This document shows positions 3,124 to 50,192 of a stretch of DNA of 64,000 nucleotides, piece by piece. Within the stretch, counting starts at the first letter, position 1, and each line of letters starts with the position of its first letter. The stretch lies in the NCBI RefSeq assembly GCF_038595065.1, contig NZ_CP152003.1:4506001-4570000 (forward strand), written 5' to 3'. Source of the DNA: Sutcliffiella sp. FSL R7-0096. GTDB taxonomy: Bacteria; Bacillota; Bacilli; Bacillales; Bacillaceae_I. The notes beneath the pieces are model-generated. The model was not told where the DNA came from, searched no databases, and saw only the letters and a list, made by a program, of their open reading frames with translations. A program made the position numbers and the translations under genes.

Positions 3124-3324
3124 TAATTCTACTTATAACATACTATGAATTCTGAAAATTTTCAATGGGTATTTTGGTTTGAGAGGATTGTGATCGCCAG
3201 CCATTTGGGTTAACCTTATTCATCCCTCAAATCCTACTTCGACAAAATATGACAATATGATTCTAAAGACCTATGTCATTACACCTCCTTAAAGACTACA
3301 ATAGGAATGTACTTTTCATAAATC

Positions 3325-3427
3325 ATGGAAAAAGGCAAAACTAGTGAAAGCTAGTGACGCAAAACTAAAGGGACTTCCGTTTGCTTTAAAAAGTGAACCA
3401 GTTAGCCAGTTACCCGCACCAACCTCC
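3325..3427 (+). ncRNA. Cyclic-di-GMP-I (GEMM) riboswitch-like leader
   Basis: The block from about 3334 shows class I c-di-GMP riboswitch signatures in order: GGCAAA, a helix closed by a GAAA tetraloop (ACTAGT-GAAA-GCTAGT), GACGCAAAACTA, a G-rich segment, a second arm, then TTAGCCAGTTACCC. Just 3' of the aptamer, ACCTCC (3422-3427) is complementary to the ribosome binding site GGAGGT (3447-3452) of the 58-residue gene, with a 19-nt loop. This suggests control of translation by ligand-dependent masking. The next downstream terminator is after the gene, so transcriptional control looks less likely. Assigned by eye from the family consensus. Confidence 0.75.
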
Positions 3428-17650: not shown

Positions 17651-18317
17651 GAAGACAATCTCACTTTGTTTTTCCTCTTGAGATTGTCTTCGCCACCCTC
17701 TAATGACAATCTCACTTTGTTTTTCCTCTTGAGATTGTCTTCATCCACCCTCTAATGACAATCTCACTTTGTTTTTCCTTTTGAGATTGTCTTCATCCAC
17801 CCTCTTATGACAATCTCACGCTGATTTTCCTCTTGAGATTGTCTTCATCCACCCTCTTATGACAATCTCACGCTGATTTTCCTCTTGAGATTGTCTTCAT
17901 CCACCCTCTTATGACAATCTCACGCTGATTTTCCTCTTGAGATTGTCTTCATCTACCCTCTAATGACAATCTCACTTTGTTTTTCCTCTTGAGATTGTCT
18001 TCATCTACCCTCTAATGACAATCTCACTTTGTTTTTCCTCTTGAGATTGTCTTCATCTACCCTCTTATGACAATCTCACTTTGTTTTTCCTCTTGAGATT
18101 GTCTTCATCCACCCTCTTATGACAATCTCACTTTGTTTTTCCTCTCGAGATTGTCTTCATCTACCCTCTAATGACAATCTCACTTTGTTTTTCCTCTTGA
18201 GATTGTCTTCATCCACCCTCTTATGACAATCTCACTTTGTTTTTCCTCTCGAGATTGTCTTCATCCACTCTCTAATGACAATCTCAACCTGCATTTCCTC
18301 TCGAGATTGTCTTCAGC
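17651..18317. repeat. Array A: 13 tandem 52-bp units of alternating inverted 9-mers
   Basis: Each unit is GACAATCTC, 17 nt, GAGATTGTC, 17 nt, so the same 9-mer recurs in alternating orientation every 26 bp. Most spacers read ACTTTGTTTTTCCTCTT and TTCATCCACCCTCTAAT, with a few variants (units 4-6 have ACGCTGATTTTCCTCTT; some units have CTCGAG). The first unit is 51 bp. 52 is not a multiple of 3 and no frame runs through. Array B (44378-44949) has the same 9-mers and spacing but different spacers. A diverged single copy lies at 19344-19395, across the NERD gene. Function unknown. Confidence 0.95.
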
Positions 18318-18349
18318 CATTCCGCAACAAAAGACTCCTTAAAAATGAA

Positions 18350-41032: not shown

Positions 41033-41935
41033 TTATTTTAATGACCCAACCATAACGCCTTTTTCAAAATACTTCTGGAAGAATGGATACATAATCAATA
41101 AAGGTAAACTTGCCACAACAATGGACGAGTATTTGATCATTTCTGCAATTTTCTGCATCTCCGCACGAGCCAGTTGATCGGCAATCATACCTGGCTGTAC
41201 CTCGTTCTGGATGAGTATTTCACGCAATACAAGTTGAAGCGGATAGAGTGAACGGTCATCCAGATAAATCATCGCTTGGAAATAAGCGTTCCATTGACCG
41301 ATAAAGGCGAATAGTGCCAGTACAAAGATAATCGGTTTGGCTAAAGGCAAGACGATTTTCCAGAAAATCATCAAGTCTGATGCACCATCTATCCTTGCGG
41401 CCTCTTTCAGCTCATTTGGTATCGCTTTAAAGTAGGTCCTTGCCAATATAAGATTCCAAACTCCCACTGCACCCGGGAGAATAATGGCCCAAGGTGTATT
41501 CAGCAATCCCAATGAACGGACGACTAAATAGGTCGGAATCATTCCCCCATTGAAAAACATGGCAATCAAGAAGAAGATAACGAAGAACTTTTTCCCGACA
41601 AGATCGTCCACTGATATTGCATAACCGGCCAGAACGGTAAAACTGATGGCTACAAATGTAAATCCTGATGCATATAGGACAGAGTTGAAGAAGCCTCTCA
41701 TAATCGTTCCATCTTGGAAGATTCGAATATATCCGTCAACCGTCCAATGTTCAGGGTTGAAGGACAGTCCTTTTGTAGCCAGGATTTGCGGCTGTAAAAA
41801 CGAGCCAAGTAGGACATATAAGAGAGGGACTGTAACAACCACTACAACCAGACTCAACAACACTTTATTGACCAGAAGAATTATCCGGTCTGTTTTTGAG
41901 CTGTTTAGTAAATGGGTACTTTTAGAATTACTCAT
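41033..41935 (-). CDS. LplC/YtcP-type ABC sugar permease
   Basis: The 300-residue product has six membrane helices and the MalG-type EAA loop NELKEAARIDGASDLMIFWKIVLPLAKP (about 196-223), which contacts the ATPase. The N-terminus (KTDRIILLVNKVLLSLVVVVVTVPLLYVLLGSF) and the C-terminal KYFEKGVMVGSLK are typical of LplC-like subunits. It starts 15 nt after the LplB-type gene ends. GGAAAGGAGGAAAACG precedes ATG. Confidence 0.9.
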   Translation of the reverse strand: MSNSKSTHLLNSSKTDRIILLVNKVLLSLVVVVVTVPLLYVLLGSFLQPQILATKGLSFNPEHWTVDGYIRIFQDGTIMRGFFNSVLYASGFTFVAISFTVLAGYAISVDDLVGKKFFVIFFLIAMFFNGGMIPTYLVVRSLGLLNTPWAIILPGAVGVWNLILARTYFKAIPNELKEAARIDGASDLMIFWKIVLPLAKPIIFVLALFAFIGQWNAYFQAMIYLDDRSLYPLQLVLREILIQNEVQPGMIADQLARAEMQKIAEMIKYSSIVVASLPLLIMYPFFQKYFEKGVMVGSLK

Positions 41936-41950
41936 CGTTTTCCTCCTTTC

Positions 41951-42934
41951 CTAATAAAGCGTTTCGCCTTTAAGTTTTTTCACTACTTGATTCGCTGTTG
42001 CTAGCAATACAAGACCAATCACGGTATTGAATAAACCTACCGCAGCACCGAAGGACCAATCTCCTGCCAGGAGCCCCCGCTTATACACATACGTATCGAT
42101 AATTTCAGAAGCTGGCAAGTTCCGATCTGTTTGTAACAAGTAGGCTTTTTCAAACCCGACACCCATAATTCCTCCAATTGCAAGAATGAAAAGAACCGCC
42201 ATCACTGGCTTCAGTACTTGCAGATCAATATGCCAAATTCTCTGTAGGAGGGAGGCACCGTCGATTGTTGCTGCATCATGCAGCTGTGGATCAGAATTGG
42301 ATAGGGCCGCAACATAGACAATGGATGCAAAGCCTGCTCCCTGCCATATACCCGATGTAATAAAGATGGTCCTGAAGTAATCAGGTTCGGACATAAATGA
42401 AACAGGTCGATTCATAAACAATCCAAGCAACCCATTGATCGGTCCTGCCGGAGATAAGAAGAGAAACAGCATCCCGGCTATAACTACCGTCGAAATGAAA
42501 TAAGGTGCATAGATAACCAACTGGATGTTCTTTTTGATTCCCGACCTCCTGATCTGATGAAGCATAAGAGCCAATATGACCGGTACAGGAAACCCAATCA
42601 GCAATTCATAAGAACTCAGCTTTATCGTATTCAGGAAAATTTGTAGAAAGTTTGGTGAGGTCAGGAAACTGGTGAAATGGGCTAAACCAACCCAGTCGCT
42701 TCCCCAAATTCCTTTTGTCACACTAAAGTTCTGAAAAGCAATCAGCACCCCATACATTGGTATATAGTTGAAAATAAAAACAGATAATAAAGCTGGTGCC
42801 AAGAACAAGTAAAGAGCCCAATTTTTCTTTATGTAGGCCATACGGTTCCTCTTCATTTTTTTTGTTTTAGGAACTTTCGTGACCTGAGTTGTAATGTCAA
42901 TCGGCTTGTCCAGAGGTTCTAAACCCTGACTCAT
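41951..42934 (-). CDS. LplB-type ABC sugar permease
   Basis: ATG 42934 follows AAAGGGGTGATATTG. The 327-residue product has a cytosolic N-terminus (KVPKTKKMKRNRMAY), six helices and the EAA loop DPQLHDAATIDGASLLQRIWHIDLQVLKP (about 215-243). It pairs with the LplC-type subunit. First gene of the operon importer-GH32-fructokinase, directly behind the composite operator at 43028-43082. Confidence 0.9.
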   Translation of the reverse strand: MSQGLEPLDKPIDITTQVTKVPKTKKMKRNRMAYIKKNWALYLFLAPALLSVFIFNYIPMYGVLIAFQNFSVTKGIWGSDWVGLAHFTSFLTSPNFLQIFLNTIKLSSYELLIGFPVPVILALMLHQIRRSGIKKNIQLVIYAPYFISTVVIAGMLFLFLSPAGPINGLLGLFMNRPVSFMSEPDYFRTIFITSGIWQGAGFASIVYVAALSNSDPQLHDAATIDGASLLQRIWHIDLQVLKPVMAVLFILAIGGIMGVGFEKAYLLQTDRNLPASEIIDTYVYKRGLLAGDWSFGAAVGLFNTVIGLVLLATANQVVKKLKGETLY

Positions 42935-42978
42935 CAATATCACCCCTTTATATATTTAGTAATTTGTCCAACAAGTTT

Positions 42979-42992
42979 AGATAGCGCTTTCT
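42979..42992. promoter_or_regulatory. Second cre-like site in the lplB-type leader
   Basis: AGATAGCGCTTTCT reads AGAAAGCGCTATCT on the minus strand, differing from a cre consensus only at the two outer bases. It is 45 bp before the first gene, where CcpA would act as roadblock. Confidence 0.5.
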
Positions 42993-43027
42993 TAGTTCAA
43001 ATATAGCGTAATGAAAGAAAAGAATAG

Positions 43028-43082
43028 TTTAATATTTTTGGGTTAAGTGTTTTAATATTTTCGGCAGTTGAAACCGGTTACA
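43028..43082 (-). promoter_or_regulatory. Composite operator of the fructan operon (two direct repeats plus cre)
   Basis: Read on the minus strand: cre TGTAACCGGTTTCA (43069-43082, 14 of 14 consensus positions), then CCGAAAATATTAAA (43051-43064) and CCAAAAATATTAAA (43028-43041), which are 23 bp apart. The same layout stands before the DUF624 gene (43874-43928) with the same 23-bp period and 4-bp gap to the cre. The direct repeats fit a dimer of the AraC-type response regulator encoded at 46404; CcpA would use the cre. Confidence 0.75.
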
Positions 43083-43105
43083 CCCCTGACAAGCATAAAA
43101 ATAAA

Positions 43106-43135
43106 AACCCTCGCTAAACACGAAAGGGTTTCTCA
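43106..43135 (-). terminator. Terminator of the DUF624 gene
   Basis: On the minus strand AAACCCT and AGGGTTT pair and are followed by TTATTTTTAT. Confidence 0.8.
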
Positions 43136-43150
43136 AAATCTTGAATACTA

Positions 43151-43804
43151 TCAAAGCACTTCAGAGGGATAGCTCTCAGCATGTGAAGCTTTTTCTTTTC
43201 TCGGAAAGGAATAGGAAGCCACTTTTGTCATGAAATAGGCTGCGAGACTTATACCGAAAACGAGTATTAATGCCGGAAGTACCATATAAGCGTAAGCGAC
43301 AACTGCAAGCAATGAAAGCAGGAAGATGGTATGAAACGGTTTTGCAACAGCAAGAATCACCGCATGTAATGGGTACTGCAAGAGCTTCAATTTAAAATGA
43401 ACGAAGATCGGGACTATGTACAATAGAGTCAAGAGATAGAGAATACCTATGACAACCGTTGCACTTGCCAAAGCCAATTGAGGAATGCCGTTTTCCATCC
43501 CCTGCAGCACTCGGATATCCAAATATAAAATAAATCCCACTATTATCATCAAATATCCAATTACGTTGGACATGATAAATTCTGATTTAAAATGGCCCCA
43601 GAAGGATTTAATCACAGCTATATCTTCATCCTCTATCATCATTTGTTTTAAAACTGCAAACATCGCCGCAGTTGCGGGAAAAATTCCAGCTATCAAAAGA
43701 CCTGATATAGAAAATATGATCCATAAAAGGTTGAGTAATACTAGATTAAATGCCCAATTTCCTAATCGAATGTACCATTGAGACATGTCAAGCATAGGAT
43801 GCAC
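43151..43804 (-). CDS. YesL-type DUF624 membrane protein
   Basis: The 217-residue product has five to six helices and the DUF624 start pattern (MSQWYIRLGNWAFNLVLLNLLWIIFSISGLLIAGIFPATAAMFAVL). YesL-like proteins accompany LplABC/YesM/YesN sugar systems in bacilli, where they may assist importer assembly or signalling; their exact function is unknown. The gene has its own composite operator and terminator, so it is co-regulated with, but transcribed apart from, the fructan operon. GGAGGTGTGCATCCT lies before the in-frame ATG, making 43804 or the ATG three codons later both possible. Confidence 0.85.
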   Translation of the reverse strand: MHPMLDMSQWYIRLGNWAFNLVLLNLLWIIFSISGLLIAGIFPATAAMFAVLKQMMIEDEDIAVIKSFWGHFKSEFIMSNVIGYLMIIVGFILYLDIRVLQGMENGIPQLALASATVVIGILYLLTLLYIVPIFVHFKLKLLQYPLHAVILAVAKPFHTIFLLSLLAVVAYAYMVLPALILVFGISLAAYFMTKVASYSFPRKEKASHAESYPSEVL

Positions 43805-43873
43805 ACCTCCATCACAATGACGGAAAACACTCCGTCTTCCCTCTCACTTTATCAAAAATGACTGGGATGATAG

Positions 43874-43928
43874 TTTAATATTTTTGGTTGCGGACTTTTA
43901 ATATTTTCGGGTATTGGAAACGCATTCA
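43874..43928 (-). promoter_or_regulatory. Composite operator of the DUF624 gene
   Basis: Minus strand: cre-like TGAATGCGTTTCCA (43915-43928, 12 of 14), CCGAAAATATTAAA (43897-43910) and CCAAAAATATTAAA (43874-43887), repeats 23 bp apart. Copy of the element at 43028-43082. Confidence 0.7.
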
Positions 43929-43936
43929 AAAAACCC

Positions 43937-43967
43937 CATAAGTTTTATTGGGGGTTCAGACTGGTGA
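43937..43967. terminator. Repeated terminator hairpin, copy 1
   Basis: AAACCCCATAAGTTTTATTGGGGGTT followed by CAGACTGGTGACAAACTAAAA. Copies at 44168-44198 (with the same CAGACTGGTGAC tail) and 45020-45050. Confidence 0.6.
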
Positions 43968-43994
43968 CAAACTAAAAACTAGTTAGGTTATCTG

Positions 43995-44136
43995 TTGGAA
44001 GAGTTGATCTTCGTTGCAGGAGCTTCGCTTTCCAGCGGGCGGTCCGGAAGCCTCCTCGGGCTAACGCCCTGCGGGGTCTTCCCTGTCCCTTCCTCCCGCA
44101 GGAGTCTTCGCTCCTTCCACTGCGATCAACTAGAGA
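43995..44136. repeat. Bacillaceae GC-rich intergenic inverted repeat
   Basis: GTTGATCTTCGTTGCAGGAGC...CAACTAGAG: outer arms GTTGATC / GATCAAC enclose GC-rich complementary blocks (GCGGGCGGTCCGGAAGCCTCCTCGG..., CTCCCGCAGGAGTCTTCGC). Elements of this form (GTTGAT...GCGGGAGCAGCGGGAC...ATCAAC) are common in Bacillaceae intergenic DNA. It lies between two copies of the repeated terminator. Confidence 0.75.
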
Positions 44137-44167
44137 ATTTCATTTTTTTCAGCTTTGTCTTCACACT

Positions 44168-44198
44168 GAAAACCCCTAATAGTTTTTCTGGGGGTTCA
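44168..44198. terminator. Repeated terminator hairpin, copy 2
   Basis: AAACCCCTAATAGTTTTTCTGGGGGTT followed by CAGACTGGTGACC, matching copy 1 on the other side of the GC-rich repeat. Confidence 0.6.
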
Positions 44199-44377
44199 GA
44201 CTGGTGACCAACCTAAAATTGTTTAAATTCTAGTTTTTTTGTAATCTAATTTAAGTCGCTTGATTTTCGCATCCGGCCCACTTATCCAGAGGGCGACCTT
44301 GAGCCTCTCTCACTACAAGAGATCTAATAATGATGGCTTCCACCTACCTCGAAATGGTTTTCCATATATCCGATGAT

Positions 44378-44949
44378 GACAATTTCAACAGAAATCCACC
44401 TTCGAGATTGTCTTCATACACCCGATGATGACAATCTCAACCGAAATTCACCTTCGAGATTGTCTTCATACACCCGATGATGACAATCTCAACCGAAATT
44501 CACCTTCGAGATTGTCTTCATACACCCGATGATGACAATCTCAACCGAAATTCACCCTCGAGATTGTCTTCATACACCCGATGATGACAATCTCAACCGA
44601 AACCCACCCTCAAGATTGTCTTCATACACCCGATGATGACCATCTCAACCGAAATTCACCCTCGAGATTGTCTTCAGACACCCGATGATGACAATCTCAG
44701 CCGAAATTCACCCTCGAGATTGTCTTCAGACACCCGATGATGACAATCTCAGCCGAAATTCACCCTCGAGATTGTCTTCATACACCCGCTGATGACAATC
44801 TCACCCGAAATTCACCTTCGAGATTGTCTTCATACACCCGATGATGACAATCCCATCCGAAATTCACCTTCGAAATTGTCTTCATACACCCGATGATGAC
44901 AATCCCATCCGAAATCCACCCTCAAGATTGTCTTCAGACAGCCGAGAAA
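44378..44949. repeat. Array B: 11 tandem 52-bp units of alternating inverted 9-mers
   Basis: Each unit is GACAATCTC, 17 nt, GAGATTGTC, 17 nt, with typical spacers AACCGAAATTCACCTTC and TTCATACACCCGATGAT. The 9-mers and the 26-bp spacing are the same as in array A (17654-18317), 26 kb away; the first spacer is quite different and the second shares only TTCAT and ACCC. Units 1, 5, 6, 10 and 11 carry single changes in a 9-mer (for example GACAATCCC). No open frame of coding look. It lies between the DUF624 gene and the solute-binding protein gene. Confidence 0.95.
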
Positions 44950-45019
44950 GTCACCTACACTAGCCGCGATATGGAACGAAGGATACGCAATAGCTATTGC
45001 GTATGACTTTGTCCACACA

Positions 45020-45050
45020 CTGAAACCCCCAATAGTTTTATTGGAGGTTT
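45020..45050 (-). terminator. Terminator of the two-component/solute-binding operon
   Basis: On the minus strand AAACCTCCAATAAAACTATTGGGGGTTT lies 6 nt after the stop; third copy of the repeated hairpin. Confidence 0.75.
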
Positions 45051-45055
45051 TCATC

Positions 45056-46378
45056 TCATTCATTCTCCTCTAAGACATTGTTTATCTTCTCAACCGCTTC
45101 ATCTGCCGCTTCCTTTACATCCCTACCTTTAATGCCCACATCTTCAAATAATACCTTGACTGTATCGCTAATTACAGAATAGTAGGGGGTAACCGGCCTG
45201 TTTTTGGAGTGATTCTGACCTTGTTGAATAAAGATATTCTTGGGATACTCGTTAAACTGAGGAAGTGCTTCTGCAACTGAATATCTAGCAGGAATTTCCC
45301 CCGTGATCTCGACAAACTTTTTGGAGCCCTCATAACTTGTCAGGAATTTAACGAGTTCCCAGGCCTCATCTGGATACTTCGTTTGGGACGATATCCCTAC
45401 AGCCCAGCCTCCGCTAGGAGCCACCTGATACTCCCCCCTCGGCAACGGAGCGACTCCAAAATCTTCTTCTAGTGAAAAGTCTTGAATGTTCTCTAACTGT
45501 CGCAAATCCCAGGATCCCAAAATGGTCATCGCAAGCTTCCCCGTTTCAAAAGCTGCTGGGGGCAATTGCATCGTAGCCACATTATGTTCGAGATAGAGGT
45601 CTTGATAGAATTGCAGTGCTTTTAAAGATTCTTCGGAGTTCAAGTAACCTTCTGCTGTGGTTCCGTCAGGACTCAGTATACTTCCGCCGAACTGCCATAG
45701 AATAGGCATCTTAAAATAGGCGGGGCCTTCCCCGTCCGTGAATCCCTGAGCTGGATCTATTCCATATACTTCTTGATCAGGATTGCTAATTTTTAGTGCA
45801 ATCTCCAAACCTTCTTCCCATGTCAACGGATTGTTTGGATCTTGTGAAGGAAAAGGGATGCCGGCTTTTCTAAACAAATGCTTATTGTAATACAGGGCAA
45901 TGCTCGATTCTACAATGGGTGCAAGATAAATCTCCTCTTCAAAGGTTAATCCGGCAATGGTGGGCTTTGAGATGTCAGCAATATCGCCTTCCTCTTTCAT
46001 GTACCGATCTAAAGATAAAAGCGATCCTGCATTGGCATAGAGCCCTAAGTTGGGACTGTCGATTGTCATGATATCCGGGTGGTTTTCGGCAGCCAATTCC
46101 GTACGAAGACGCAATTCATATTCCAGTCCCCAATACTGTGCCTGCATATTGATTTTTATATTGGGATGTAGCGCCTCAAAGTCCGCTACTAATTGTTCAT
46201 ACGCAGCATTGAATGACGCATTTCCTAGATTGCGCCAAAAGGTGAGCTCTATTTGTTCTACATTTTCCGCTTCCTCTCCGTTTTCCACCGTTTTATCAGA
46301 GAAGCCATTTTCAAACAGGACATACCCTGCTGCTATGACCAAAGCCACCATTACAAGGATAAGGGCTATCTTTTTCAT
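45056..46378 (-). CDS. Sugar ABC solute-binding protein (family 1) linked to the sensor kinase
   Basis: ATG 46378 follows AAAGGTGATCTT; the longer frame overlaps the response regulator and is not used. The 440-residue product has an N-terminal hydrophobic segment (KKIALILVMVALVIAAGYVLF) without a lipobox Cys, so it is a signal anchor or signal peptide, and a maltose-type binding fold (LTFWRNLGNASFNAAYEQLVADFEALHPNIKINMQAQYW, APSGGWAVGISSQTKYPDEAWELVKFL). Being in one operon with a YesM/YesN pair, it probably presents the sugar to the sensor rather than, or besides, the importer. Confidence 0.85.
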   Translation of the reverse strand: MKKIALILVMVALVIAAGYVLFENGFSDKTVENGEEAENVEQIELTFWRNLGNASFNAAYEQLVADFEALHPNIKINMQAQYWGLEYELRLRTELAAENHPDIMTIDSPNLGLYANAGSLLSLDRYMKEEGDIADISKPTIAGLTFEEEIYLAPIVESSIALYYNKHLFRKAGIPFPSQDPNNPLTWEEGLEIALKISNPDQEVYGIDPAQGFTDGEGPAYFKMPILWQFGGSILSPDGTTAEGYLNSEESLKALQFYQDLYLEHNVATMQLPPAAFETGKLAMTILGSWDLRQLENIQDFSLEEDFGVAPLPRGEYQVAPSGGWAVGISSQTKYPDEAWELVKFLTSYEGSKKFVEITGEIPARYSVAEALPQFNEYPKNIFIQQGQNHSKNRPVTPYYSVISDTVKVLFEDVGIKGRDVKEAADEAVEKINNVLEENE

Positions 46379-46403
46379 AAGATCACCTTTCTTTCTATTT
46401 ACC

Positions 46404-47996
46404 TCAGCTGTCACGGTTAATGGATTTACGATAATCTGCAGGTGAATAACCAAATTGTTTTTTGAAAACTGTACTGAAATACCCTGAATTGGAGAAGCCG
46501 ACAAGGTGCGCAACGTCAATGATCTTAAGCTGTGGATCCTTTAAGAACTTTTTGGCATTCTCCATTCGCAGGCAATTTAGATAATCGCTAAAATTTTGGC
46601 CTACATGATTTTTAAAAATCTCGGATAAATAAGCACTATTAATATGGAATTGTTTTGATAAGCTGGAGAGTGTAATTTCGCTAGCATAATGGGACTCGAT
46701 GAATCGTCTTACATTTTCCACCAATTCAGAACCACTTGAAGAAGATCGGACTTCCTTAACCTTCTGTACAATGGCTTGGGCCAATTGTTGAAGTTGCTCT
46801 TTCACCCTGATTTGGGAATTGAGTTCCCATATGCTTTGCTGACAATTCCAGATTCTATCTTTCATCTCCACCGTATCCACGTCATATTTTCTGGCAAGTG
46901 AGCCCAATAGAAATAGAACCCGGTTGGCCAGAAAGGAAAATGCCATCATGGAGAGATCTCCTCCTAAAACATCTTGAAGGGAATCTTGGAATGCCCTTTG
47001 GTCGGCATTTTCTATGGCATTCGTAAGTCTCTTCTCCACATCTAAGGTGAAGTTGAATACCTCGGTTTGAGCCGTCCCTTCAATCACCTGTGAATGTCCC
47101 CCAACCTGACTTTGACTCCAAGAGAGCAGTGCGGAAATATACCCATTCTTAAATTGCTGAAAACCTTTGACACCCTTTCCGATGCCGATAACCGTTTCTA
47201 CTTTCAAATATTCTTTTACTTTGGCCTGCAAGTTTCTGATAAAATGCGATGAATGCGTTAAGGGTGCACCATGCTTTTGATGTAGGAAGTGAATCATATT
47301 AGAATAGCCTGCATCATAGAAGAAGTGTATACCTTCATTCCTTTCAGCATATTCCTTGCAGAGCATCTTGAATGGGAGCAGCAGCTTCTTCAATTCATCG
47401 GGATTTCCTTTTGCACTTCTCATTTCTACCGTTACGAATTGAACCTCGGTGTTCTCCTGTGCCAAAGTCTCCAGTTGCAACTGCTTTAACCTATCCTTGG
47501 CTACATTAAATTCCGTAAATTCCTCTTTCACTAAATACAGCAAATACTGTTCGCGCATCTCTTCCAGCTGGTTATGGACAACACGGCTTATGCGCTCCGA
47601 TTCCAATCGCTTTTTCTTTTCCATATCTGCTTCGTGGCGGATTCGTTGCAGTGCATCCGCCAGTTCATCAGGAGCAACTGGCTTTAGAAGGTAGTCTTTT
47701 ACTCCAGCCTTCATCGAGGATTTTGCATATTCAAAATCAGAATAGCCCGATAGCACAATCACTTTTATATCCGGGTACTCCACATGGCATCGCTTGACAA
47801 ATTGCATCCCATCCATGATGGGCATGCGAACATCTGTAATAACGATGTCCACCTCTTTTTCTTTCAGAATCTCAAGGGCTTCCTGGCCATTTGCTGCCTC
47901 AGCTACAATTTCAAACCCTGCCTGTGCCCAATCCACTTTCATTCGGAGCCCTTTGCGTATTTGAATTTCATCATCACTAATCAGCACTTTCATCAT
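46404..47996 (-). CDS. YesN-type response regulator with AraC DNA-binding domain
   Basis: The 530-residue product has a receiver domain with phospho-acceptor Asp55 (DIVITDVRMP) and DDE at 8-10, a middle region of about 300 residues, and a C-terminal AraC pair of helix-turn-helices (ENVRRFIESHYASEITLSSLSKQFHINSAYLSEIFK and IIDVAHLVGFSNSGYFSTVFKKQFGYSPADYRK). GGGGGATATAC precedes ATG; the first codons overlap the kinase gene by 20 nt. It most likely activates the fructan operon and the DUF624 gene through the 23-bp direct repeats. Confidence 0.92.
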   Translation of the reverse strand: MMKVLISDDEIQIRKGLRMKVDWAQAGFEIVAEAANGQEALEILKEKEVDIVITDVRMPIMDGMQFVKRCHVEYPDIKVIVLSGYSDFEYAKSSMKAGVKDYLLKPVAPDELADALQRIRHEADMEKKKRLESERISRVVHNQLEEMREQYLLYLVKEEFTEFNVAKDRLKQLQLETLAQENTEVQFVTVEMRSAKGNPDELKKLLLPFKMLCKEYAERNEGIHFFYDAGYSNMIHFLHQKHGAPLTHSSHFIRNLQAKVKEYLKVETVIGIGKGVKGFQQFKNGYISALLSWSQSQVGGHSQVIEGTAQTEVFNFTLDVEKRLTNAIENADQRAFQDSLQDVLGGDLSMMAFSFLANRVLFLLGSLARKYDVDTVEMKDRIWNCQQSIWELNSQIRVKEQLQQLAQAIVQKVKEVRSSSSGSELVENVRRFIESHYASEITLSSLSKQFHINSAYLSEIFKNHVGQNFSDYLNCLRMENAKKFLKDPQLKIIDVAHLVGFSNSGYFSTVFKKQFGYSPADYRKSINRDS

Positions 47997-49764
47997 GTAT
48001 ATCCCCCTTAATTTTTATACATAATGTAATCTTGGTTCCTTTGTTTTTCTGAGAATCAATATGAAAGCTAAAGTCGTCCCCATAATAAAGCTTCAATCTA
48101 ACCAGGACATTCTTCAACCCGATACTTGTCCCTTTACTTGCCAGGACGTTCGTTGAATCCGTCATATCTGCATTCATCAAATCCAATTTGACTTCTTCTG
48201 ACATCCCGATGCCATTGTCTTCAACCGAGATGAATACATGGTCCCCTTCTTTAACTGTCTTTATATTTATTTCTGCATGGGTGTTTTCCATAAAGCTGTA
48301 TTTGGCTGCATTTTCCACAAGCGGCTGTACGATAAATTTGATTATCGGCAACGATTTTGTTTCAGGTTCCTCCACAATACTAATCGAAATAGCATCTTCG
48401 TACCTGACTTTGAGAATGTCTGTGAAATTGCGTATATAATTAATCTCCTGGCCCAAAGGTACAACATCGGTATGGGTATTCAACGAATAGCTCATCATCC
48501 TCCCTAAATAGACACTGACATTGATGACGTCTTTGTTTTTCCCCTGTGCTGCCAAGCCGCCAATAATCTCAAGCGTATTATTCATAAAATGAGGATTGAT
48601 CTGGAGAAGCAAGGCTTTATATTCTGCATCTTTTCTTCGAAGATTTGCCTCATACTCAATTTTTATCAGCCTATTCAACCGGTCAACGGTCTGGTTAAAT
48701 ACTTTAATGTGATAGCCAACTTCGTCGTTTGGTTTCTTTATTGTAGGCATATAGTGTGTTGCACCTGTGAAATCTCCCCGCTCGATATATTCCATCGCTT
48801 TGGTCATCTTGCCAAGAGGTCGTACGATGGTGGTGGAAAACAAATAGGAAGCGAGAATCGTCAGAATAAAAATGATTCCAGAAGTATAAAGCAATCGATT
48901 TTGTAATTGATTTACTTTGGAAAACAACTCTGATTTGGTGATTTCACTGAAGAGAATCCAATCCCCTACAGAAAGTTTTTGATAGAAAACAAGATATTCC
49001 TCCCCATTGTGAGAACTTTCTATCAGGCCCTTACTACTTGCACTATTCACTATTTCCCTTAAACTATCTTTTAGAACAACCTCTGGAGTGCTTACGCTTC
49101 CTGTCAGAACATTTTCACCGGTGCTGCTCAATAAATGCACTCGGCCATTTTCCCCTAGTGTAACTTTTTCTAGGGCTGTTTCTAGCAAGGTTGATGGCAG
49201 ATTCACTTTTATCACTCCGGATTGATGAAGCGTGTAGATATCATATAAAGGGATTACAAAACTATTTACATAGCTTTGTACATATGTTTGCTGATAGGCG
49301 TCTGTATGGGCCTTGATCCATCGTTGGTTTTTCCCTGAGTACTCTTGAAACCACTCGACCTCAGAGAGAAAGGGATGATTTGTCCATATTCCGGTGCCAT
49401 CATTCAAAAAAACGGAAATGGACATGGTATTCGAATTATTTGAGGTCATCGTGAACAGCCAGTTTTTTAATTCATTTCGAATAAAATGGAGCTCGGCCAA
49501 AGAGGCATCGCCGCTCTCTTCCAACTGTAGCCATTGTTGGGTGGTCTGGTTCACTAACACCTGCTTACCAAGATCCTCTGCTTGTACCGTTACAGAATCC
49601 ATATATAATGAATATTGATCCATCATATCAAGGGTGTTGTTTTTAGTCTGATCTTCAATAACCGAAGTAAACCAGCTTGGTATAATAATAGATAAAACAA
49701 TAAATGGAACCGTTAACAAAAGTGTAAAAATAAAAAATAGTCGATTTCGTAAGGAAAAAAACAT
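47977..49764 (-). CDS. YesM-type sensor histidine kinase
   Basis: ATG 49764 has GGGGG 6 nt before it. The 595-residue product has two membrane helices (about 7-30 and 285-307) around a Cache-like outer domain, then HAMP (LGKMTKAMEYIERGDFTGA), the LytS/YesM-type phospho-acceptor LLLQINPHFMNNTLEIIGG and a HATPase domain (VENAAKYSF, VEDNGIGMS, GTSIGLKNVLVRL). It would sense a sugar through its own outer domain or via the solute-binding protein of this operon. It overlaps the regulator gene by 20 nt. Confidence 0.92.
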   Translation of the reverse strand: MFFSLRNRLFFIFTLLLTVPFIVLSIIIPSWFTSVIEDQTKNNTLDMMDQYSLYMDSVTVQAEDLGKQVLVNQTTQQWLQLEESGDASLAELHFIRNELKNWLFTMTSNNSNTMSISVFLNDGTGIWTNHPFLSEVEWFQEYSGKNQRWIKAHTDAYQQTYVQSYVNSFVIPLYDIYTLHQSGVIKVNLPSTLLETALEKVTLGENGRVHLLSSTGENVLTGSVSTPEVVLKDSLREIVNSASSKGLIESSHNGEEYLVFYQKLSVGDWILFSEITKSELFSKVNQLQNRLLYTSGIIFILTILASYLFSTTIVRPLGKMTKAMEYIERGDFTGATHYMPTIKKPNDEVGYHIKVFNQTVDRLNRLIKIEYEANLRRKDAEYKALLLQINPHFMNNTLEIIGGLAAQGKNKDVINVSVYLGRMMSYSLNTHTDVVPLGQEINYIRNFTDILKVRYEDAISISIVEEPETKSLPIIKFIVQPLVENAAKYSFMENTHAEINIKTVKEGDHVFISVEDNGIGMSEEVKLDLMNADMTDSTNVLASKGTSIGLKNVLVRLKLYYGDDFSFHIDSQKNKGTKITLCIKIKGDIHDESAD

Positions 49765-50192
49765 ATTGGCCCCCAGGGAAGATATCATAGTAAGTAATAA
49801 TTCTATTTTAATGGAATAAAGGTCTCATTTATAAGGTAATATTTTGCTGTCATACTATTCTTATAAATTAACAGATGAATCGGTGGCTGTCACTGTTGCA
49901 TTTGAGGATTAATAATTAGAGAAGTATGTTTCAAGTTGGTTTATACTTTTTTGAGTCACAGGCTGAGGATGTTTTGATAGTTAAAAATAAATGCAAAAAA
50001 TGCCCAATTACCATGGGGTTATTGGTTTGATGACTCGCCTATTAAGCTAATCTTTACATTCAGTCAGGTGATAGCACTTATCTGCCTTGTATTTACCGGG
50101 CTGCCATACCTGCCACTAGCGACTTCCACCATTTTGAAGTTGGCCGTTAGTCACGTAAACCGGCAGCGGGTCGGCTTTACCAACCTTTTAAT

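Follow-up and report, generated by a model that had tools for sequence, protein, structure and literature searches.

What is the conserved part of two tandem arrays that share a spacing of motifs and little of the sequence between them, what might it do, and how did one of the arrays come to lie inside an operon? These questions are raised by the window analysed here, a stretch of 64,000 nucleotides from the chromosome of Sutcliffiella sp. FSL R7-0096 (NZ_CP152003.1, positions 4,506,001 to 4,570,000; genome G000), in which array A and array B lie 26 kb apart. Coordinates refer to the window unless stated otherwise.

A 52-bp unit with a palindromic core

17654 to 18319, plus strand: array A, of the same array family as array B (Tandem Repeats Finder, TRF: period 52, 12.8 copies, score 1108).
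44378 to 44949, plus strand: array B, 11 units of 52 bp.
44410 to 44432, no strand assigned: first 23-bp palindromic core of array B, GTCTTCAT-N7-ATGATGAC.

The units of array B start at 44378, 44430 and so on up to 44898, each laid out as GACAATCTC-17-GAGATTGTC-17, and TRF delimits the repeat at 44347-44945 (period 52, 11.5 copies, score 965). The first-pass annotation had described eleven units of two constant 9-mers separated by 17-nt spacers; the layout indeed recurs at exactly 52 bp in 11/11 units, but both 9-mers are exact in only six of the 11, the others carrying one or two changes (GACAATTTC, GACCATCTC, GACAATCCC, AAGATTGTC and GAAATTGTC). Exact 9-17-9 pairs would be expected by chance about 1e-6 times in the window given its base composition, and the exact pair is found 43 times in the 4.9-Mb genome versus 0 times for a reversed-pattern control. 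The first spacer of array B is AACCGAAATTCACCTTC with variants. Array A has the identical period and unlike spacers, and the first-pass observation that spacers are homogenised inside arrays and different between them holds. A CRISPR identity for array B was rejected because its spacers are nearly identical inside the array rather than unique.

The same annotation took the 9-mer together with its fixed spacing for the conserved part, a proposal that different 9-mers or variable spacing in other arrays would undermine. Other arrays do carry different 9-mers, with GACAATCTG, AAGATGGTC/GACCATCTC, GAAAGTGTC and GAGAGGTC substituting in the same genome and genus, yet these arrays retain both a common core and the period. 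Thus, GAGATTGTC is the local form of a wider array family and not its conserved part, whereas the spacing stands: period 52 is modal in 73 of 74 arrays, and 453 of the 482 steps between their 562 units are exactly 52 bp (steps of 38 to 66 bp being allowed). The constant unit of the family is a 23-bp palindrome, GTCWTCAT-N7-ATGAAGAC, present once per 52 bp (in array B at 44410, 44462, 44514, 44566, 44618, ..., 44826 and 44878), and what the arrays have in common is limited to GTC/GAC and, flanking a loop of 7 nt, the inner WTCAT/ATGAA. All 74 array consensuses have GTC and GAC unchanged, with spacers unrelated between arrays; this conservation is partly built in, as the array search was anchored on the core, at a threshold allowing 4-5 mismatches in 16, and the arrays were gathered by pattern searches and from selected genome stretches. 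Between orthologous arrays of different species, differences affect 0/66 GTC/GAC sites, 31/176 spacer sites and 16/77 loop sites. A search for GTCTTCAT-N5..9-ATGAAGAC returned up to 199 copies per Sutcliffiella genome, almost all of them having a loop of precisely 7 nt, and a sequence-only model of the unit detected about 20 arrays in the genome, among which the 9-mer is variable. One member of the genus (G010), unlike the rest, has nine copies of the palindrome with loops of other lengths and none with 7 nt.

The period of 52 bp corresponds to five turns of a 10.4-bp helix. A+T content oscillates at 10.4 bp above shuffled controls both in Sutcliffiella and in the other genera, as the strongest component among long periods in both groups; in Sutcliffiella, however, periods of 17.3 and 13 bp also exceed the shuffles, which counts against the DNA-level reading favoured below. 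An A/T tract occupies the midpoint of 297 of 453 spacers, compared with 73 after shuffling. At two loci (positions 9665-9959 of L007, and L179), two unit types alternate to form a 104-bp higher-order repeat resembling satellite DNA.

The motif TTCAT-N2-ACCC, noted at first pass in both arrays, was found in both, but the asymmetric element read into it dissolves, as TTCAT is half of the symmetric core, ACCC belongs to the C-rich loop and the skew tracks the leading strand. Of 49 arrays, 41 have a spacer skew matching the local leading strand, and loop skew matches it in 39 and opposes it in eight; the skew of the genome itself changes sign between 2.29 and 2.33 Mb. The strongest exceptions are copies of the array B type (B-type copies) at other sites, which are found both along and against the local skew. 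Mean array skew is 0.38 versus 0.10 in other intergenic DNA, an excess that strand composition does not fully explain. Since the skew agrees with the local leading strand, the asymmetry looks like strand-biased drift of loop and spacer around a symmetric core; a functional polarity was rejected, the asymmetry fitting replication-strand composition and B-type copies occurring in both orientations.

Arrays beyond intrinsic terminators

Arrays are located mostly just past intrinsic terminators. None of the 59 arrays with two called neighbours lies in a divergent gap, compared with 47 of 205 other gaps (p = 3e-6), and a hairpin with a T-run separates stop codon and array in 29 of the 59 gaps, versus 1/59 in shuffled gaps and 1/59 in equal stretches beyond the array. 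The median distance from array to gene is 99 bp where the 3' end of the gene faces the array and 232 bp where the 5' end does. In four rRNA operons of the genome, an array follows the 5S gene at a distance of about 220 bp (L048, L049, L050 and L051), the rRNA-operon flanks being nearly identical, and an rRNA operon of another genome (G014; L189) likewise carries one. Upstream neighbours inspected by eye include homologues of highly expressed genes (EF-Tu, enolase, rpsD, ndk and fabF). The arrays are thus short palindromes in many intergenic copies, as REP/BIME sequences are, and lie downstream of transcription units, as BIME-2 repeats do. Overall, they are palindromic mosaic repeats of intergenic DNA whose geometry is unusually rigid.

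Comparing array positions between genomes, as the first-pass annotation had proposed, reveals that they are often kept: most arrays hold their position between species (array A with G013, where the equivalent position is occupied by L072; L005, L057, L008, L009, L058 and others), with changes in unit number and sequence. The family is present in 13 of 16 Sutcliffiella genomes and is patchy in other genera of Bacillales. The exact core occurs in 25 of 397 genomes of the order, including, outside the genus, G213 (69 copies), G259 (19) and G067 (18), and arrays outside Sutcliffiella, also found in other families of the order, have the same core and the same 52-bp steps. No match to the arrays was found on phages or plasmids, no partner protein was found by co-occurrence, and no published description of the arrays was found in the openly licensed literature under the 9-mer, 52-bp repeats or host names. 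At Rfam gathering thresholds, the arrays match no known RNA family, the only hit in the window being a c-di-GMP-I riboswitch at 3324-3417 (RF01051, 59.6 bits).

Insertion of the array B element into a terminator hairpin

43151 to 43804, minus strand: gene for a DUF624 protein, the next gene downstream of array B.
43928 to 43956, no strand assigned: terminator hairpin, third copy, to the left of the 212-bp repeat.
43957 to 44168, no strand assigned: second mobile repeat of 212 bp, with the same ends as the element that it adjoins.
44169 to 44196, no strand assigned: left copy of the target terminator hairpin, AAAACCCCTAATAGTTTTTCTGGGGGTT.
44197 to 45022, plus strand: MITE-like element of 826 bp with inverted ends CAGACTGGTGACCAAC ... 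TTTGTCCACACACTG and the array mid-element.
44197 to 44357, plus strand: left constant module of the element; its copies beside B-type arrays at other sites are 88-95% identical.
44945 to 45022, plus strand: right constant module of the element; its copies beside B-type arrays at other sites are 91-96% identical.
45023 to 45049, no strand assigned: right copy of the target terminator hairpin, AAACCCCCAATAGTTTTATTGGAGGTT; G001, where the site is empty, has one copy of the hairpin.
45056 to 46519, minus strand: solute-binding protein gene (SBP_bac_1) of the ABC transport operon, upstream of array B.

Array B lies within a MITE-like element that inserted into a terminator hairpin and duplicated the hairpin whole. 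The element begins with CAG at 44197 and ends with CTG at 45022, with CAGACTNNTGACAAA as the end sequence of the B type, and the sequences on either side of its array are common to L073, L074, L075, L076 and L079 and recur around B-type arrays elsewhere in G013. G001 is empty at the B site, with one terminator hairpin, and G002 there has one hairpin on each side of the element; the site of L073 is empty in G000 and G002. Terminal inverted repeats and a target-site duplication, by which MITE and BOX elements are recognised, are thus present at both the B and L073 sites. Shared flanks are limited to the B-type arrays (and to the rRNA-operon flanks), with no end modules common to all arrays, and MITE ends were not found at array A. 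A scan of the examined stretches for element ends found no transposase moving the B-type element.

The adjoining 212-bp repeat is present at this site in G000 only, together with the third hairpin copy, and absent there in G002. Its ends are CAGACTGGTGACAAAC and TTTGTCTTCACACTG; the genome holds at least about 20 copies at 90-96% identity, with relatives across the genus, and the repeat usually lies within a terminator hairpin, which is then found on both sides (L053, L057, L062, L063 and L064). Element and 212-bp repeat are situated inside an ABC-transport operon (41033-49788; histidine kinase, response regulator, solute-binding protein, DUF624 and permease), after the solute-binding gene. 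The B-type element is evidence of a MITE family whose targets are intrinsic terminators, each hairpin being duplicated in full, and such targeting offers mobile DNA a route into operons that leaves the genes unbroken.

Candidate roles and known systems

Several models can be envisioned to explain a geometry this rigid. The one we favour, at roughly even odds, is that the family acts at the level of DNA, as a platform for protein binding or wrapping that is similar to BIME-2 and BOX repeats in position and behaviour. The invariant GTC/GAC, the loop of fixed length and free sequence, and the whole-turn period point to a protein recognising duplex DNA on one face: each 52-bp unit presents one dyad-symmetric site and, with a unit of five helical turns, successive dyads fall on the same face of the helix. 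The A+T alternation at 10.4 bp may favour bending or wrapping, and a candidate protein could bind the dyads and coat or wrap the array just past the terminators, perhaps as gyrase does on the BIME-2 repeats of Escherichia coli. We infer the bound protein, the wrapping and any link to supercoiling from this geometry, and a link to gyrase itself would be speculative, drawn from analogy. Recombination between units would lengthen, shorten and homogenise arrays, so that loops and spacers drift and core and period are kept; within arrays, linkage across the spacer is indeed stronger than across the palindrome, as expected if recombination breaks fall in identical cores. The B branch arrived at its site within a MITE-like element, which targets and duplicates terminator hairpins. 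Counting against a DNA platform are the distribution, patchy even within genera as for mobile elements, and the complementary arms of the Sutcliffiella arrays, which a hairpin could explain; the avoidance of divergent gaps, also expected of any insertion that spares promoters, weakens the reading. In a stronger version, which we regard as rather unlikely, the arrays form a chromosomal DNA-wrapping platform that recruits a topoisomerase or nucleoid protein and absorbs transcription-driven supercoils, its geometry kept in several genera of Bacillales. If the arrays do bind or wrap protein, their number in each genome and the orthologous sites with different unit numbers would make them a natural, ordered test bed for Gram-positive chromosome organisation at gene ends.

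A serious rival, possible if doubtful in our estimation, is a purely selfish or neutral BOX-like interspersed repeat, spread in MITE-like carriers, persisting in harmless 3' intergenic DNA and expanding by slippage or unequal exchange, with core and period kept for spread or amplification only. The inverted ends, duplicated target and empty sites of the B type fit such a history, as do the patchy occurrence within genera, the unequal unit numbers of orthologous arrays and the BOX elements built on the same plan (PMC3049150). Yet most arrays lack carrier ends and shared flanks and nevertheless have a constant core and period, most positions are retained between species, and slippage alone would not hold 52 bp across unrelated spacers.

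Action as RNA is improbable. Transcribed 3' hairpins would stabilise upstream mRNA or attenuate read-through, as the malE-malF REP does, and this model draws on the folding of the arrays, which on both strands is far stronger than that of shuffled sequences (z -5.5 to -8.5), on the covariation of the arms between arrays at several positions, and on the placement of array B in an ABC-transport operon after a solute-binding gene. However, the arrays lie mostly beyond the terminator, and within arrays the arms show no covariation across the palindrome. At position 8 the two bases fail to pair in 28 of 74 consensus units, pairing there not exceeding chance expectation; GTC/GAC never changes, even to other pairs; the arms beside the core, complementary in Sutcliffiella, are not so in other genera; and RNA hairpins need no fixed 52-bp period.

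Movement of the arrays as a REP/REPIN cluster by a single-copy Y1 (RAYT-like) transposase is very improbable and was largely refuted as an explanation. A Y1 match is present in 16/16 genomes of the genus, the genomes lacking the 198-aa orthologue (G006, G010 and G015) have few or no exact cores, and the location in co-directional and convergent gaps resembles that of REPs (PMC3733652). Against this, the Y1 gene is flanked by a core in none of the genomes, a Y1 match at 1e-10 is missing from G067 despite its 18 cores, and most genomes of the order with the gene are without arrays. The half-site forms no hairpin by itself and lacks a GTAG or CGTC tag; neither tag (families as in PMC3733652) is constant in the core or in any array consensus. 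In G000, the single-copy Y1 gene (L092, G000:C1:4619944-4620369) stops early, at 159 aa compared with 198 aa in sister species, the last part of its product being out of frame relative to relatives. Finally, next to no probability remains for the first-pass view that GAGATTGTC itself with its spacing is a conserved protein-binding signal: 43 exact pairs in the genome speak for it, but other arrays of that genome carry AAGATGGTC, GAAAGTGTC, GAGAGGTC or CAGATTGTC, and most sister-species arrays retain the inner GTC/GAC only.

The sopC-type centromere repeats of the F plasmid are direct repeats of tens of base pairs, and a protein dimer binds the inverted repeat that each contains. The arrays are likewise direct repeats of tens of base pairs with an inverted repeat in each, but unlike sopC they are chromosomal, occupy many loci and match no plasmid or phage. 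With BIME-2 and REP clusters they share the many intergenic palindrome arrays, in co-directional or convergent gaps downstream of transcription units (PMC6379681, PMC3733652), and differ in the core, the missing GTAG/CGTC tag, the single dyad per rigid 52-bp unit and the lack of a RAYT link. Gyrase motifs of E. coli show a phased 10-bp variation in G/C, and BIME-2 repeats and the regions downstream of transcribed operons are enriched in them (PMC6379681); the composition of the arrays, set beside this published description, is similarly phased near one helical turn, a resemblance only. Pneumococcal BOX elements are mobile and intergenic, with constant end modules and variable internal tandem modules (PMC3049150), a plan that fits the B-type element; the sequences are unrelated, most of the arrays described here have no end modules, and the terminator hairpin targeted by the B type is duplicated whole. 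The insertion sequence IS1272, of the IS1182 family, targets inverted repeats some 21-38 bp long, many of them located immediately downstream of a gene (PMC5678879), and the B-type element shares this preference for stem-loops; by contrast, IS1272 replaces the stem-loop, whereas the B-type element leaves a duplicate on both sides.
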